Shown: piece after piece, positions 1 through 15,036 of the stretch
Layout: each line of letters begins with the position of its first letter
Numbering within the stretch: the stretch's first letter is position 1
Assembly: GCA_016865985.1 (NCBI GenBank)
Contig: VGNO01000007.1
Span: 1-34,309 of the forward strand
DNA: 34,309 nt
Source of the DNA: Chloroflexota bacterium
GTDB taxonomy: Bacteria; Chloroflexota; Anaerolineae; Anaerolineales; Villigracilaceae
Direction: 5' to 3'
Notes under the pieces: model-generated
What the model was told of the DNA's origin: nothing
What the model saw: the letters and a program-made list of their open reading frames with translations, nothing else
The model's database searches: none
Made by a program: the position numbers and the translations under genes

Positions 1-96
1 ATCGGCATCGGGATGCTCTCCGGATTCATCGTCCTGCTGGCCGAACGGTCGGGGCTGATGAAGAGGGGCGATAAATCGGCGGAGAAAAAAGATTAA
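1..96 (+). CDS. C-terminal end of a membrane protein (partial)
   Basis: An open frame runs in from the left edge and ends at TAA (94-96). The visible 31 residues are a hydrophobic stretch (IGIGMLSGFIVLLAE) followed by a lysine-rich tail (KRGDKSAEKKD), the usual shape of a last transmembrane helix with a positive cytoplasmic end. The 5' part lies outside the window, so the family cannot be named. The stop codon overlaps the first bases of the inverted repeat that brackets the next gene, so the repeat may have supplied or replaced the original 3' end of this gene. Confidence 0.6.
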   Translation: MGIGMLSGFIVLLAERSGLMKRGDKSAEKKD

Positions 97-119
97 CACA
101 AAGGACACGAAGGGAGCAC
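93..119 (+). repeat. Left inverted repeat of GxxExxY cassette A
   Basis: The sequence TTAACACAAAGGACACGAAGG begins on the stop codon of the upstream gene, as TTAACACAAAGGACACGA and on. An inverted version (reverse complement begins TCAACACAAAGGACAGAAAGG) sits at 541-583 after the gene. The same repeat family flanks the second GxxExxY gene at 2088-2121 and 2549-2577. The repeats are richer in A and T than the flanking genes. Confidence 0.8.
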
Positions 120-120
120 T

Positions 121-537
121 ATGGATTCAAGGATACCAAAGGCAAAGGCTTTTGCTCCGATTCCACCCGAGGTGGAGCGGGTTGGGAAGATTGTGCTGGA
201 CGCGGCTTTTCGCGTCCATACGGCGCTCGGCCCGGGTCTGCTGGAATCGGTTTATATGACTTGTCATGCGTATGAAATCCGCGAAAGTGGCCTGCTCGTG
301 GAATCGCAGGTGGCCGTTCCAGTTGCATACAAAAACATGCGGATGGAAGGCGGCTTGCGCTTGGATTTGCTCGTGGAGAAGAGCGTGATTGTCGAGGTCA
401 AGGCAGTTGAAATGATGAACCCTGTTTACGAAGCGCAACTCCTGACTTATCTGCGACTCACCGGTATTCGTCTCGGTTATCTCATCAACTACACTGTTCC
501 GCATCTCAAAAACGGCATCAAGCGCATGGTCGTCTAA
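121..537 (+). CDS. GxxExxY family protein, copy A (PD-(D/E)xK-like)
   Basis: The 138-residue product carries the family signature G39-LL-E42-SV-Y45 inside HTALGPGLLESVY. A core resembling the PD-(D/E)xK nuclease fold follows: LDLL with D82, then VIVEVKAVE with E92 and K94, then a conserved YEAQLLTYLRLTG helix and a C-terminal LKNGIKRMVV. Length and motif order fit the family (about 125-140 residues). The fold is associated with nucleases, but no activity is established for this family and none can be read here. It shares most of its sequence with the gene at 2126-2536, yet the DNA has diverged. The repeat region lies directly upstream, and the GGGAG in the end of the repeat may act as the ribosome-binding site for the ATG at 121. 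Function is unknown; a role in defence or mobility is inference. Confidence 0.9.
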   Translation: MDSRIPKAKAFAPIPPEVERVGKIVLDAAFRVHTALGPGLLESVYMTCHAYEIRESGLLVESQVAVPVAYKNMRMEGGLRLDLLVEKSVIVEVKAVEMMNPVYEAQLLTYLRLTGIRLGYLINYTVPHLKNGIKRMVV

Positions 538-540
538 AAA

Positions 541-583
541 TCCCTTTGTGCCCCTTCGTGATTCCTTTCTGTCCTTTGTGTTG
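541..583 (+). repeat. Right inverted repeat of GxxExxY cassette A
   Basis: CCTTTGTG-type units (CCCTTTGTGCCCCTTCGTG, then CCTTTCTGTCCTTTGTGTT) are inverted relative to the units at 93-119. The run ends just before the methyltransferase start at 591. The two arms could pair in DNA or in a transcript spanning the gene. Confidence 0.78.
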
Positions 584-590
584 AGAATCC

Positions 591-1472
591 ATGACCAAAC
601 GTAAAACCACCAAAACATCCTCCTTCGGGACCCCGGGCCGGGTCGGCCACAACTCGTCCGCGTTCTACGCTGGGAAGTTGTACCGCGGCCAGCCGCGCGG
701 ACAGGATGACGCGCCGTATGTCGAGAACCCCGTCCCGCCCGCGTCGCTCGACCGTATCTTCTGCCGCTCCGCCGAGACGACGACCGCACTCCCGGCTTGC
801 TCCGTCCATCTCATGGTCACCTCGCCGCCGTACAACGTGGGCAAGGAGTACGATGAAGACCTCTCGCTGGAGGAGTACCTGGCCTTCCTCGAACGCGTCT
901 GGAAGGAGACGTACCGCGTCCTCGTGCCGGGCGGACGCGCCTGCATCAACATTGCCAACCTCGGGCGCAAACCCTATCTCCCCCTTCACTCATTGCTGAT
1001 CACTGATTTACTGTCTTTGGGCTTCCTGATGCGCGGCGAGATCATCTGGAACAAGGCTGCCAGCGCAAGCCCGTCCACGGCGTGGGGTTCGTGGAAATCG
1101 GCGGGCAACCCGACGCTGCGCGACGTGCACGAGTACATCCTCGTCTTCTGCAAGGATACTTTCAAACGCCAGAACCCGGAGAAGCGCGAAAGCACCATCA
1201 CGCGCGATGAGTTCCTCGAATACAACAAATCGGTCTGGAACTTCGCCGCCGAACCGGCGCGCAAGGTGGGACACCCGGCCCCGTTCCCGGTCGAGTTGCC
1301 GAGGCGGTTGATACAACTCTACACGTTCGAGAATGAGATCGTGTTGGACCCGTTCATGGGCAGCGGTCAAACCGCGATTGCGGCGCGAAAGAGCAACCGT
1401 CATTTCATTGGTTACGAGATTGACGAAAACTATGTAGCGCTTGCCAACCAGCGGATTTCTGAAGGAGCGTGA
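591..1472 (+). CDS. Beta-class DNA (N4-cytosine or N6-adenine) methyltransferase
   Basis: The 293-residue protein transfers a methyl group from S-adenosylmethionine to an exocyclic amino group of a base in DNA. Catalytic motif IV, TSPPY, is at residues 77-81 and the SAM-binding motif I, DPFMGSG, is near residues 254-260. Motif IV before motif I defines the beta order. After motif I comes RHFIGYEIDENYVALA, the usual helix-strand of this family. TSPPY is common in N4-cytosine enzymes but also occurs in N6-adenine ones, so the modified base is undecided. The first 50 residues are a low-complexity leader. No restriction endonuclease gene with a recognisable motif lies beside it, so it may be an orphan methylase or the modification part of an unrecognised system. 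The next gene begins 3 bases after its stop, which indicates coupling. Confidence 0.92.
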   Translation: MTKRKTTKTSSFGTPGRVGHNSSAFYAGKLYRGQPRGQDDAPYVENPVPPASLDRIFCRSAETTTALPACSVHLMVTSPPYNVGKEYDEDLSLEEYLAFLERVWKETYRVLVPGGRACINIANLGRKPYLPLHSLLITDLLSLGFLMRGEIIWNKAASASPSTAWGSWKSAGNPTLRDVHEYILVFCKDTFKRQNPEKRESTITRDEFLEYNKSVWNFAAEPARKVGHPAPFPVELPRRLIQLYTFENEIVLDPFMGSGQTAIAARKSNRHFIGYEIDENYVALANQRISEGA

Positions 1473-1475
1473 ATC

Positions 1476-2090
1476 ATGAAGCCTGCCAGTGTTGTGCAAT
1501 GCAAGGATTTCCCCTGCCTCGACATTCAGCAGCAGAGTCATTTCATCCCTGAAATCGTCATTGACCCGAAGAATATCTCCATCCTGCTCATCTCCGAAGC
1601 CCCACCAGCGAACCGCGCCGACTATTACTACGCCGGACCGGATGCGCTGTTCGCCAAAACGACCGTCCTCGCGTTTCAAGATGCCGGAGCAAAAGTGAAG
1701 TCGGTGCAAGATATTCTCGACCTCGGCGTTTATCTGACACCCGCGGTCAAGTGCGGCAAGGCAGGCGTCGGTGTTGCTACCGCCACAATCGAACACTGCT
1801 CGCGCCTGCTCGAAAAAGAGATCGCCCTGTTTCCGAACATCAAGGTCTTCCTGCTGATGGGCGACGTGGCGATCAAGGCGGTCAATAGGATCGCGAAACG
1901 CAACGGCGAGCCGCGCGTCATCCCGGCGGGGGCCACGTACAAGATCCGCGGCGGCGAGTTCCATTTCCGCGGGGCGCGGGCGTTTCCGTCTTATGTGCAG
2001 GCCGGTCCGGCGTTTTTTGTGGAAAAAAGTAAAAGAAAAATGATTGGCGAAGATATCCGAAAAGCCTTGCAAATCATAAAGGATTCCTAA
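1476..2090 (+). CDS. Uracil-DNA-glycosylase-superfamily protein, probably with an Fe-S cluster
   Basis: The 204-residue product has the layout of family 4/5-like uracil-DNA glycosylases. ILLISEAPP (residues 36-44) corresponds to the GEAPG motif, VYLTPAVKC (85-93) to the TNVVKC strand, and VFLLMGDVA to the central LLLG strand. Four cysteines, C9 and C14 near the N-terminus and C93 and C108 later, sit at places comparable to the 4Fe-4S ligands of these enzymes, although C9-x4-C14 is wider than the usual CxxC. The C-terminal catalytic His-containing motif is not obvious: FPSYVQAGPAFF stands where HPS.. is expected. It may therefore have altered catalysis. AGGAG precedes the ATG. Its 3-base distance from the methyltransferase stop suggests joint expression. 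Repair or defence roles are both possible. Confidence 0.7.
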   Translation: MKPASVVQCKDFPCLDIQQQSHFIPEIVIDPKNISILLISEAPPANRADYYYAGPDALFAKTTVLAFQDAGAKVKSVQDILDLGVYLTPAVKCGKAGVGVATATIEHCSRLLEKEIALFPNIKVFLLMGDVAIKAVNRIAKRNGEPRVIPAGATYKIRGGEFHFRGARAFPSYVQAGPAFFVEKSKRKMIGEDIRKALQIIKDS

Positions 2091-2121
2091 CCACAAAGGG
2101 CACGAAGGAGCACAAAGGAAA
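2088..2121 (+). repeat. Left inverted repeat of GxxExxY cassette B
   Basis: The repeat starts with the TAA stop codon of the UDG-like gene (CTAACCACAAAGGG, then CACGAAGGAGCACAAAGG) and runs to 5 bases before the second GxxExxY start codon. The units match those at 93-119. As at cassette A, the upstream gene's stop is embedded in the repeat. Confidence 0.8.
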
Positions 2122-2125
2122 AGAT

Positions 2126-2536
2126 ATGGATAAACCCATTCAAAAACGATTTGCGCCCATCCCAGTGGATGCGGAGGTGATTGGGAAGAAGGTATTGGAC
2201 GCCGCATACGCTGTCCACACGGCGATCGGGCCCGGTTTTCTGGAATCGGTTTACGAGGCCTGCCTGGCGCACAAACTCCGCCAAGAAAATGTATTGGTGT
2301 CAACGCAAGTGGTCATGCCTGTTACGTTTGAAGGCGTACAGATAGAGACCGGACTGCGCCTCGATTTGCTTGCCGGGAAACTGGTCATTGTCGAACTCAA
2401 GTCGGTCGAAACGATGATCCCACTCTATGAGGCTCAACTGCTCACCTATCTCAAGGTCACCGGCTTGAGGCTTGGCTATTTGATCAACTTCAATGTTGTC
2501 CATCTCAAGAACGGAGTCAAGCGCATGGTGAATTAA
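2126..2536 (+). CDS. GxxExxY family protein, copy B (PD-(D/E)xK-like)
   Basis: A second, diverged copy of the family, 136 residues. The signature is G37-FL-E40-SV-Y43. The PD-(D/E)xK-like core is D80 in LRLDLL and E90/K92 in VIVELKSVE, followed by YEAQLLTYLKVTG and the shared tail LKNGVKRMVN. Compared with copy A the central segment differs most, so this is not a recent tandem duplication. AAGGAAAAGAT in the adjoining repeat can serve as the ribosome-binding site for the ATG at 2126. It is bracketed by the same inverted repeats as copy A. The function is unknown; preserved acidic and lysine residues in both copies argue that the nuclease-like site is under selection. Confidence 0.9.
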   Translation: MDKPIQKRFAPIPVDAEVIGKKVLDAAYAVHTAIGPGFLESVYEACLAHKLRQENVLVSTQVVMPVTFEGVQIETGLRLDLLAGKLVIVELKSVETMIPLYEAQLLTYLKVTGLRLGYLINFNVVHLKNGVKRMVN

Positions 2537-2548
2537 GACTCCTTAAAG

Positions 2549-2577
2549 CCTTTGTGTTCCTTTGTGTCCTTTGTGGT
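2549..2577 (+). repeat. Right inverted repeat of GxxExxY cassette B
   Basis: CCTTTGTGTTCCTTTGTG followed by TCCTTTGTGGT gives three CCTTTGTG units in the orientation opposite to 2088-2121. The reverse complement, CTACCACAAAGGACAC, matches the CTAACCACAAAGG start of the left arm. Confidence 0.78.
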
Positions 2578-2600: not shown

Positions 2601-4301
2601 ATGACAGATAACCTGAAACCCATTGGCTATATTGTTGGCGGCGGATTGAAAGAGTCGTTCCGCGCCCGCCTCACCGTTCCCTCGCAGGAAATCCAGGAGG
2701 GCGCTTTCGTCGTCATCCCGAGCGGCGACTGGCAGTTCTACGGCCTGGTCACCGACTTGCAACTGGGCGCGACCGACCCGCGCTTCGCCGACGAGCAGTC
2801 TGGGACGCGCCTGCCGCCCGCGCTGGCCCAGGCGCTGCACGGCCATACGCTCTATACCAACCTGGAGATCCTGCCGGCGCTGATGCTCGAGCGCGGACCT
2901 GAACCCGGTTCGCCGGAGTACGCGGCTTGGATGAAGGAAAAGGCCGATAGAACACCGCGCCCGCTCCCGGTCAAGACCGTGCCGCCGCACCACGCCCCGG
3001 TCCGGTTGGCGTCGGACGGCGACATCTCCGAGATCTTCGGCAACCCGTCCGAGAAGGGCAACTTCGTCATCGGTTACACCCGCGAACAGGGACACCCGGT
3101 CTGCATCGACCTCGACAAGTTCATCCAGCGTTCGGCGGGCGTCTTCGGGGCGACCGGCGCCGGCAAGTCGTTCCTGACCCGCATCGTGCTGGCCGGGCTG
3201 ATGCACCACGGCAAGGCATCGACGCTGGTTTTCGACATGCACAACGAGTACGGTTTCGACGACACCGCCTCCGACACCGGGATGCCGGTGACAGGCTTGA
3301 AGACGAAATTCGCCAGCCGCGTCCGTGTGGTCGGGCTGGGACCGAAGGCGCTCATCCGCAATAACACGCCCGATTTCAACCTGGAGATCGCGGCGGCCGA
3401 CATCACCCCGGCGGATATCGAACTGCTGACCGGCGAACTGAACCTGCGCGAGACCACGCCGACCGTGCTGCACGCCCTGGCGCGCTCGTTCGGCGGCGAC
3501 TGGTTCCGGCGGTTCCGGGAGATGAACCGGGAGGAGGTGGAGGTCGAGGACGAAAGGGGGAAGGTGAAGCGCGTGCCGCACCCGTCCAGCGTGGCAGCCT
3601 GGGCCAATGCGAACGGCGTGAACACGATGGCGGCGGAGGGACTGCAGGACAAACTGCGCCGCCTGTTCGACAAGCCGTACATCGTCGAGAAGCCGGCTGC
3701 CGATTCGCTCGGGCAGATGGTGGACTCGCTGGAGAAGGGGAAGCATGTCGTCCTGTCGTTCGGCAACTTCGAGACCGACCTGGATTACCTGTTCGTCTCC
3801 AACCTGCTGACGCGCAAGGTCAAGCAGGTCTGGGAGGACAGTACTAACGCCTTCCGCTCCACCGGCAAGGACGAGCCGCGCCAACTGGTGATCGTGCTGG
3901 AGGAGGCGCATAAACTCCTGAACCGTGAGATGGCGGGACAGACGACCTTCGCCGCCATCGCCCGCGAGATGCGCAAATACTACGTGACGCTGCTCATCAT
4001 CGACCAGCGCCCGTCGCAGATCTACGATGAGGTGCTCTCGCAACTCGGGACGCGCATCTCCGGCTGGCTGGGGGACGAGGACGATGTCCATGCCGTGCTA
4101 TCCGGCCTGTCGGGGCGCGAGTCCCTGCGCGGGATGCTGGCGCGCCTGCAGCCGAAGGAGGAAGTGCTGCTGCTGGGCTGGGGTGTGCCGATGCCGCTGC
4201 CGGTGCGCTCGCGGCGCTACGACGATGTTTTCTGGCGCGAGTTGCTCGGCGCGGGCGGGAAGAAGGACGAGGCGCAGATCATGAAGGAGTTGGGGTATTG
4301 A
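2601..4301 (+). CDS. HerA-type DNA translocase ATPase
   Basis: The 566-residue protein belongs to the HerA/FtsK group of ring-forming DNA-translocating ATPases (DUF87-like). Residues 1-100 form a beta-rich N-terminal region like the HAS barrel that docks a nuclease in HerA-NurA complexes. The Walker A motif GATGAGKS is at 183-190 and Walker B, LVIVLEEAHKLL, is near 427-438. The following IIDQRPSQIYDEVLSQ helix carries the sensor and arginine region. The C-terminal MPLPVRSRRYDDVFW is typical of the family. In archaea HerA works with the nuclease NurA in end resection; bacterial relatives pair with varied effectors in phage defence. No NurA is seen here. Possible partners by position are the GxxExxY protein just upstream and the 94-residue protein downstream. 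No strong ribosome-binding site precedes the ATG. Confidence 0.88.
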   Translation: MTDNLKPIGYIVGGGLKESFRARLTVPSQEIQEGAFVVIPSGDWQFYGLVTDLQLGATDPRFADEQSGTRLPPALAQALHGHTLYTNLEILPALMLERGPEPGSPEYAAWMKEKADRTPRPLPVKTVPPHHAPVRLASDGDISEIFGNPSEKGNFVIGYTREQGHPVCIDLDKFIQRSAGVFGATGAGKSFLTRIVLAGLMHHGKASTLVFDMHNEYGFDDTASDTGMPVTGLKTKFASRVRVVGLGPKALIRNNTPDFNLEIAAADITPADIELLTGELNLRETTPTVLHALARSFGGDWFRRFREMNREEVEVEDERGKVKRVPHPSSVAAWANANGVNTMAAEGLQDKLRRLFDKPYIVEKPAADSLGQMVDSLEKGKHVVLSFGNFETDLDYLFVSNLLTRKVKQVWEDSTNAFRSTGKDEPRQLVIVLEEAHKLLNREMAGQTTFAAIAREMRKYYVTLLIIDQRPSQIYDEVLSQLGTRISGWLGDEDDVHAVLSGLSGRESLRGMLARLQPKEEVLLLGWGVPMPLPVRSRRYDDVFWRELLGAGGKKDEAQIMKELGY

Positions 4302-14942: not shown

Positions 14943-14987
14943 AAGTGTTCCAGTGTCAAGTGTTCCAGTGTCAAGTGTTCCAGTGTC
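14943..14987 (+). repeat. Three tandem 15-base repeats
   Basis: AAGTGTTCCAGTGTC occurs three times back to back (14943-14957, 14958-14972, 14973-14987) in the leader between argS and the cDPGS-like gene. The unit is a multiple of 3, and on the minus strand would read TLEHL repeats if translated. Such an array is liable to change copy number. Confidence 0.85.
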
Positions 14988-15036
14988 ACGACTCGGTGTC
15001 ACGTGATACTGGGCAACGTGACGCCGGGAAACGGGA

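Follow-up and report, generated by a model that had tools for sequence, protein, structure and literature searches.

Small nuclease genes of the GxxExxY family were found to lie between inverted arms, typically at the end of another gene, in bacteria of several phyla. The sequence of the arms follows the lineage of the encoded protein, hairpins built of the same arms occur without the gene in genomes that carry it, and orthologous sites differ in the presence or absence of the cassette. These results suggest a family of small mobile elements not described before, REP/RAYT-like but built on a different enzyme. In the reading that we favor and consider reasonably probable, a nuclease resembling Cas4 and lambda exonuclease stands in the transposase's place.

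Two GxxExxY cassettes at gene ends

The window is the whole stretch of 34,309 nucleotides that was analyzed. The features that bear on the two cassettes are as follows.

3 to 95 (+), 3' end of the upstream gene; stop codon TAA at 93 to 95
95 to 124 (+), left arm of cassette 1 (AACACAAAGGACACGAAGGGAGCACTATGG); inverted repeat and motif match, beginning on the stop codon
121 to 537 (+), GxxExxY gene 1 (138 aa, PD-(D/E)XK nuclease fold); TIGR04256, 133 bits; PF13366, 129 bits
541 to 583 (+), right arm of cassette 1 (CCTTTGTG/CCTTCGTG units); pairs best with the left arm at 553 to 582
591 to 1472 (+), N6/N4 DNA methyltransferase, neighbor; PF01555, 171 bits; type II methyltransferase in PADLOC
1476 to 2090 (+), uracil-DNA-glycosylase-like protein, neighbor; PF03167, 32.7 bits; stop codon TAA at 2088 to 2090 overlaps the left arm of cassette 2
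2090 to 2118 (+), left arm of cassette 2 (ACCACAAAGGGCACGAAGGAGCACAAAGG); inverted repeat, 90% complementary
2126 to 2536 (+), GxxExxY gene 2 (136 aa); TIGR04256/PF13366; conserved E40, Y43, D80, E90, K92, and Q104
2549 to 2577 (+), right arm of cassette 2; inverted repeat partner of 2090 to 2118
2601 to 4301 (+), HerA-type helicase, neighbor; PF01935, 97.7 bits; bounds the orthologous comparison site downstream

A preliminary description of this DNA had placed both genes between inverted repeats, with each left repeat on the stop codon of the preceding gene. Both ORFs, which score far above the profile cutoffs, and all four arms were verified, and the left arms overlap the TAA codons at 93 to 95 and 2088 to 2090. 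The arms of cassette 1 (95 to 124 and 553 to 582) are 80% complementary, and those of cassette 2 (2090 to 2118 and 2549 to 2577) are 90% complementary. With up to 3 mismatches allowed, CACAAAGGACACGAAGG has exactly four matches in the window, one per arm, against a chance expectation of 0.08. The repeats had also been described as more alike than the genes that they enclose, which was borne out: the arms agree at 86 to 95% over their matching stretches, versus 66% of nucleotides and 62% of residues for the genes. At both genes the arms are inverted arrays of 8- to 9-nt units (CACRAAGGN); the general unit skeleton is CRCRRAKKN, about 8 to 9 nt long and often framed by TTAA. Both cassettes lie between protein-coding genes and not in a 23S rRNA gene. 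The gene that ends at position 95 is not the one that precedes the same block of gene 1 and methyltransferase in L138 and L139.

The GxxExxY protein

Both window proteins are clear members of TIGR04256 (133.3 and 130.8 bits; cutoff, 35) and of PF13366, PDDEXK_3 (129.2 and 128.3 bits; cutoff, 22), libraries that record the protein family only. The catalytic D...ExK motif is intact, with D80, E90, and K92 invariant across 22 sequences. An AlphaFold2 model of gene 2 (pLDDT, 89.8) had Cas4 SSO0001 and lambda-type exonucleases as its nearest Foldseek matches, with weak E values (4e-3 at best), and the predicted fold appears Cas4/lambda-exonuclease-like. Pfam, NCBIfam, and the fold comparison returned a PD-(D/E)XK nuclease only and no Y1/HUH tyrosine transposase. 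No relative was found by sequence among solved structures, the phage collection gave no match, and PADLOC called nothing for GxxExxY. Judging by substitution ratios, the genes are under purifying selection (dN/dS of 0.04 for gene 1 versus its L115 orthologue and of 0.07 to 0.10 between orthologues of gene 2). In the portions of the literature retrieved, GxxExxY was met in passing, with no text on flanking repeats of TIGR04256 or PF13366; searches with the repeat sequences and related terms returned nothing, and no description of the element was found.

Arms at GxxExxY genes of several phyla

A survey of 104 GxxExxY genes from several phyla gave a mean flanking inverted-repeat score of 42, compared with 21 for swapped flanks and 17.6 for shuffled flanks. 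Scores of at least 34 were obtained for 70% of these genes, 0% of shuffles, and 3% of 147 control ORFs. The preliminary description had asked whether repeats always flank such genes; they do at this majority, and roughly 30% lack clear arms. The left arm starts within 12 nt of the upstream stop codon at 36 of 70 testable genes, versus 2 to 4 of 70 for controls; together with the inverted arms at most genes, this upholds the notion of a modular cassette at gene ends. The neighbors are unrelated, with the 103 downstream genes falling into 61 families. Carriers of the cassette include Chloroflexota, Acidobacteria, Planctomycetes, and Bacteroidota, among the last the cultured Bacteroides finegoldii, with a radA-GxxExxY site, and Bernardetia, which have the same architecture.

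The arms might instead act in RNA, where a stem in a polycistronic transcript would protect or release the internal gene, like the intervening sequences (IVSs) of 23S rRNA that are cut by RNase III, and where pairing would be conserved. The geometry is that of an IVS, in which a long stem carries the ORF in its loop (PMC4990558), and the cassettes sit between codirectional genes, straight after stop codons. However, mismatches that keep a G.U pair numbered 113 and those that break pairing 132 (P = 0.25), and the absence of a bias toward G.U pairs makes a conserved mRNA stem unlikely; this wobble test led us to drop the idea of an RNA element. Facing units also failed to covary: their variable positions were the same in 8 of 37 cases, versus 17 expected, a tendency to differ more often than chance would give. 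The direction was the same in three genomes, although stricter selection was only suggestive (9/24, 6/16, and 7/21). The excess of A/G mismatches at unit position 4 in one genome, to which the count of 8 of 37 refers, was taken as a lack of covariation and not as selection for mismatches. No Rfam family matched. The conserved RNA structure that the preliminary description had offered as its alternative is thus disfavored, and we regard an action of the arms in RNA as decidedly improbable.

Arm sequence and protein lineage

The sequence of the arms varies from gene to gene and tracks the lineage of the protein, even among paralogs. On the protein tree, arm units are clade specific, and the L003-type paralog has other arms, CGCGGATT. 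Between genomes, arm similarity and protein identity were correlated with a Spearman coefficient of 0.42 (best of 500 permutations, 0.17), and of 0.35 when one gene per neighborhood was kept (best of 2,000 permutations, 0.22; P = 0.0005), a correlation that simple coinheritance would also produce. The corresponding value within one genome was 0.49 (n = 42 pairs).

Gene-less hairpins

Hairpins of 50 to 100 bp with the same arms but no gene occur by the tens per genome. They were found with gapped scans; a strict ungapped palindrome scan missed most of them, the arms being imperfect. The genome of the window has 77 motif matches, versus 10 for the reversed control, and most of these lie in short gene-less hairpins, so that the motif is not private to GxxExxY genes there. 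Pattern matches and a 434-kb sample of this genome yielded at least 20 distinct CACRAAGG hairpins, compared with two genes with such arms.

The preliminary description had weighed its cassette against repeats scattered through intergenic space with no tie to GxxExxY genes, which themselves would be mostly bare. Gene-less repeats are indeed scattered, but most GxxExxY genes have repeats, and at the genome level the tie is tight: at least five motif matches were present in 55% of GxxExxY carriers, versus 3% of noncarriers (151 genomes; P = 1.7e-12). Four of the five top motif counts (62, 106, 115, and 185) belong to genomes that carry the nearest relatives of gene 2. There are two exceptions, G043, with a close protein relative and no motif matches, and G029, with 81 motif matches and no close relative of gene 2.

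The motif-rich genome G029, together with the great excess of gene-less over gene-bearing hairpins and the finding of unrelated four-helix-bundle genes likewise between repeats, would fit ordinary intergenic palindromes that are moved by something else, with GxxExxY genes as passengers often caught between two of them. Against this stand the dependence of motif abundance on the presence of GxxExxY, the tracking of protein lineage by arm type (within one genome, too), and the different sequences of the arms at four-helix-bundle genes; we judge the passenger explanation quite unlikely. A variant of our favored reading, in which most gene-less hairpins arose by decay, through loss of the internal gene, and not as copies spread in trans, seems to us unlikely, if less so. 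Decayed genes do exist at L139, L225, and L235, and in G018, whose herA is the closest (84%), a hairpin takes the place of the gene found in the window. The abundance of CACRAAGG hairpins relative to genes with such arms nevertheless argues against decay, as do loop sequences common to L011, L016, and L023, which point to copying of the gene-less form.

Occupied and empty sites

Upstream of herA, next to the same upstream gene, the site may be empty or hold one of three kinds of hairpin, a GxxExxY cassette, or a four-helix-bundle gene. The preliminary description had suggested a search for empty sites that keep one repeat; empty, hairpin-only, and gene-bearing states all occur at this one orthologous site. 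The methyltransferase site bears the gene in the window and in L139 and only a 52-bp hairpin in L138, and between the congeners G105 and G082 hairpins are cleanly present or absent. No target site duplication was seen in these filled and empty pairs, which are too diverged to reveal one (none was visible at 84% identity), nor were near-identical recent copies or an excision product seen. Of the mobile or modular cassette first proposed, the modular part, at gene ends, stands; mobility we infer as likely. Gene 2 next to herA is common to several families, and this herA-linked gene looks old, mostly vertically inherited, and not highly mobile now.

HerA is commonly paired with nucleases, as in HerA-NurA. 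GxxExxY could accordingly be a resident partner of neighboring DNA-processing genes, gene 2 forming a helicase-nuclease pair with HerA, and the arms would merely regulate it. Gene 2 does stay beside herA in several families, under purifying selection. However, the linkage to herA is confined to that single locus among the diverse downstream neighbors, and relatives with intact herA have the site empty, hairpin-only, or occupied by a nonnuclease gene. We consider such a partnership very improbable.

A proposed REP/RAYT-like element and its relation to known systems

In REP/RAYT systems, an endonuclease gene lies between inverted palindromic repeats, carrier genomes hold many repeat-only copies, and the repeats coevolve with the protein (PMC2817692). 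The GxxExxY cassette shares the nuclease gene between two inverted repeats, the additional copies of the repeats where the cognate gene is present (G043 and G029 excepted), and a repeat sequence that tracks protein phylogeny. It differs in its PD-(D/E)XK fold, in place of the Y1/HUH tyrosine transposase (IS200/IS605-like) of RAYT, and in its arms, which on inspection by eye are arrays of 8- to 9-nt units without a GTAG/CGTC tag.

In the reading that we favor, an element would consist of one GxxExxY gene and its two inverted arms, the arms being arrays of short DNA sites. The encoded PD-(D/E)XK nuclease would most likely recognize arm units from its own lineage and, by binding or cutting the arms, could drive the spread and persistence of the element in short intergenic gaps, typically straight after a stop codon; gene-less hairpins built of those arms may spread in the same way. 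The proposed function, processing of self-specific repeats, concerns a widespread nuclease family known by its motif name only, and would account for a large class of the hairpins that lie between genes in environmental bacteria. Matched pairs of arms and proteins make the specificity testable, with each lineage providing a predicted substrate of its own and paralogs in the same genome serving as nonmatching controls.

Miniature inverted-repeat elements (MITEs) and small insertion sequences likewise have short terminal inverted repeats, nonautonomous derivatives, and presence/absence polymorphism, but at the GxxExxY cassettes no DDE/HUH transposase was seen, nor any target duplication among the diverged filled and empty pairs, and they carry arms that are diversified between copies in one genome. 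Unlike a HerA-nuclease pair, they are not constantly linked to herA, as shown by the 61 families among 103 neighbors and by sites that are empty or hold other cargo.

The IVSs of 23S rRNA have complementary ends around an ORF, and their functionality and origin have been called unclear (PMC4990558). With the S23/four-helix-bundle ORF (TIGR02436) of these sequences the cassettes share their layout, a short ORF that forms the loop between the halves of a long inverted repeat; the GxxExxY protein is unrelated, the cassettes are intergenic and not in rRNA, and their arms resemble DNA site arrays and not a conserved RNA stem. The proposal would tie the hairpins to the unsolved origin of the IVSs. 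More tentatively, GxxExxY and four-helix-bundle (IVS/S23) genes may be two cargo lineages of one undescribed element superfamily in many phyla, possibly defined by a small gene between inverted arrays of self-specific 7- to 9-nt DNA units, gene-less hairpin satellites, shared gene-junction sites, and arms that form a diversified code for the encoded protein. In these genomes, TIGR02436 genes are arranged in the same way and use the herA site as well.

Inverted arms around the GxxExxY genes

Both GxxExxY genes of the window had been described preliminarily as lying inside inverted repeats, with the left repeat beginning on the stop codon of the preceding gene, and both claims were confirmed.

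Features at the start of the window
93-95: stop codon TAA of the upstream gene (last codons only, start of the window)
95-124/553-582: inverted arms of cassette 1, around GX1
121-537: GxxExxY gene 1 (GX1)
591-1472: N6/N4 DNA methyltransferase (MTase)
1476-2090: uracil-DNA-glycosylase (UDG)-like protein
2090-2118/2549-2577: inverted arms of cassette 2, around GX2
2126-2536: GxxExxY gene 2 (GX2)
2601-4301: HerA-type helicase (herA)

The left arms of cassettes 1 and 2 overlapped the stop codons TAA 93-95 and TAA 2088-2090, respectively. With up to three mismatches, CACAAAGGACACGAAGG occurred within the 34 kb only at the four arm positions (0.08 expected). In all, 36 of 70 testable left arms started no more than 12 nt from an upstream stop codon (upstream frames of at least 90 codons were counted), compared to 2 to 4 in shifted controls, and the downstream neighbors of 103 GxxExxY genes fell into 61 families. 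Among cultured species, clear arms were present in Bacteroides finegoldii (between radA and the gene for a FAD-dependent protein) and Bernardetia (between ade and the mannose-1-phosphate guanylyltransferase gene); the Sphingomonas copy, between fabD and fabG, had a left arm only. In Prevotella and Treponema, whose copies are more distant, clear arms were looked for and were absent.

Arm types and gene lineages

The genome containing the window had nine GxxExxY matches, and most of its other GxxExxY genes were also bracketed, by arms unlike those of the window (AACCGCAGAG..., GCGGATTTCGCGGATT..., CCACAGATGAACGCAGATAAAC..., and AATCCTTCTAATCAAGG...). The arms of 104 GxxExxY genes from Chloroflexota relatives, Acidobacteria, Planctomycetes, Bacteroidota, and others were surveyed. 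Inverted-repeat alignment of upstream and downstream flanks gave a mean score of 42; with swapped flanks the mean was 21, and after shuffling it was 17.6. A score of at least 34 was reached by 70% of the 104 genes, 0% of shuffles, and 3% of 147 control ORFs drawn from the same loci. Flanks also matched in direct orientation in 38 to 40% of cases, because both sides often carry entire hairpins or the arms occur in tandem. At the GX1 orthologue of genome G018 (L187:1112-1510), the right arm was tandemly amplified, and a gene-less hairpin lay directly upstream.

The common arm skeleton was roughly (CRCRRAKKN)n, often with TTAA on the outer side, and clade-specific units were visible on the tree. 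Arm similarity correlated with protein identity (Spearman 0.42; maximum of 500 permutations, 0.17), also with one gene kept per neighborhood family (0.35; maximum of 2000 permutations, 0.22). Paralogs within one genome gave a correlation in the same direction (0.49, n=42 pairs). Arm type is thus a property of the gene lineage rather than of the genome.

Gene-less hairpins

The CACRAAGGN-type repeat is not private to GxxExxY genes. The CACAAAGGACACGAAGG motif matched 77 times in the 3.2-Mb genome containing the window, versus 10 times for the reversed control, and the majority of copies were stand-alone imperfect hairpins without a gene; 20 distinct ones were examined. The hairpins were built of two to three CACRAAGGN units, a loop of roughly 10 to 40 nt, and two to three reversed units. 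A scan of 434 kb of this genome found 83 hairpin-like places, versus 23 in shuffled sequence, with clear families including CACRAAGG and CGCRGAG types.

These satellites were associated with presence of the GxxExxY gene across 151 genomes of the order, 84 with the gene and 67 without. At least five CACRAAGGNCACRAAGG matches, counts that take in the few gene-bearing arms, were found in 55% of carriers versus 3% of noncarriers (p=1.7e-12, genome kinship ignored). The four genomes with the nearest GX2 relatives had 62, 106, 115, and 185 matches, four of the top five. Two genomes were exceptions: G043 has a close GX2 relative and zero matches, and G029 has 81 matches without a close GX2 relative.

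Occupied, hairpin-only, and empty sites

A search for sites lacking the gene, as the preliminary description had proposed, found empty and hairpin-only states upstream of herA and a hairpin-only state at the MTase site. Upstream of MTase, GX1 is present in the window and in locus L139; L138, whose MTase is 86% identical and whose upstream gene is that of L139, has a 52-bp hairpin alone, immediately after the stop codon.

Many relatives share one conserved gene upstream of herA. The intervening gap was empty in L224, L227, L236, and L241, was 31 to 45 nt without a hairpin in L233 and L244, and held a hairpin in L218 (CACWAAGG type), L221 (CACAGAGA type), and L222 (a third type). A GxxExxY cassette occupied it in 16 loci, mostly fetched for GX2 resemblance, so that the number is no frequency estimate; these include L138 (cassette plus MTase) and L139 (cassette plus MTase and UDG). 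Congeners G105 and G082 (84.5% identity over 352 kb) likewise differed by clean presence or absence of hairpins, e.g., in the gap separating a tRNA gene from the following ORF. No target duplication could be recognized in the diverged pairs of filled and empty sites (herA, MTase, and G105/G082).

Several further arrangements were seen at such sites. The window (1-600) and L139 (440-1480) have different genes to the left of cassette 1 although they have everything rightward in common: the cassette edge coincides with a rearrangement breakpoint. At L139:1376-1480, another GC-rich palindrome breaks up the right arm of the decayed GX1 copy. In L138 (1373-2100) and L139, hairpin elements frame MTase, with or without UDG, in the space that separates herA from the gene normally upstream of it. 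Other dispersed hairpins occupy sites of this kind too: CATTCTGAGCGA...GAAGAATCTC upstream of herA in L222 and TCATTCCGAGCGAAGCGAGGAATC at about C1:710882 of G105 (L286), the latter present or absent between congeners.

DNA sites or RNA stem

If an mRNA stem were selected, arm mismatches should favor G.U. No such bias was found (113 compatible versus 132 incompatible transitions, p=0.25), nor did facing units covary at variable positions, and constant unit positions were unchanged in nearly all copies. This agrees better with DNA sites, arrayed for a protein, than with a conserved RNA stem; the substrate could still be an imperfect hairpin or a cruciform in DNA. In hairpins of G000, G106, and G154, facing units tended to A versus G at unit position 4 (in G000, 8 of 37 facing pairs were the same, with 17 expected; the trend weakened under stricter selection).

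The GxxExxY protein and the kind of element

The dN/dS ratio between GxxExxY orthologues was 0.04 to 0.10, indicating strong purifying selection. E40, Y43, D80, E90, K92, and Q104 were invariant across 22 sequences. No sequence relative was found in the PDB; the structures nearest to an AlphaFold2 model (pLDDT 89.8) were Cas4 SSO0001, LHK-Exo, and lambda exonuclease, followed by a Holliday junction resolvase (best E 4e-3, probability 1.0). We infer that this nuclease recognizes the arms and has a role in spread. The organization is similar to that of REP/RAYT (PMC2817692), but both nuclease family and repeat tag differ; we therefore class the element as a variant, one that codes for a nuclease and has self-specific repeats as well as satellites lacking the gene. 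Open frames of 490 to 610 aa contain some of the GxxExxY matches (G006:C2:95865, G018:C14:62657, G004:C20:120437, and G016:C22:40674), possibly as fusions with another domain.

Four-helix-bundle genes

Four-helix-bundle genes of these genomes (TIGR02436, a family akin to the ORFs carried by 23S rRNA intervening sequences; PMC4990558) also lay between inverted quasi-tandem repeats, with units of about 7 nt. A score of at least 26 was reached by 68% of 34 such genes, versus 3% of swapped flanks and 5% of control ORFs. Their arms were unlike GxxExxY arms in sequence, with units such as AGTGATC, GGACGAT, CAAGTGT, and TAGTTGG, among others (L246-L252, L373-L401). Such a gene occupied the gap upstream of herA in L226, L240, and L245 and likewise lay upstream of herA in L228 and L239. 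An imperfect, partly inverted array, GTGTTCCAGTGTCAA, without a gene, at window positions 14943-15032, resembles the arms of the four-helix-bundle gene of L251.
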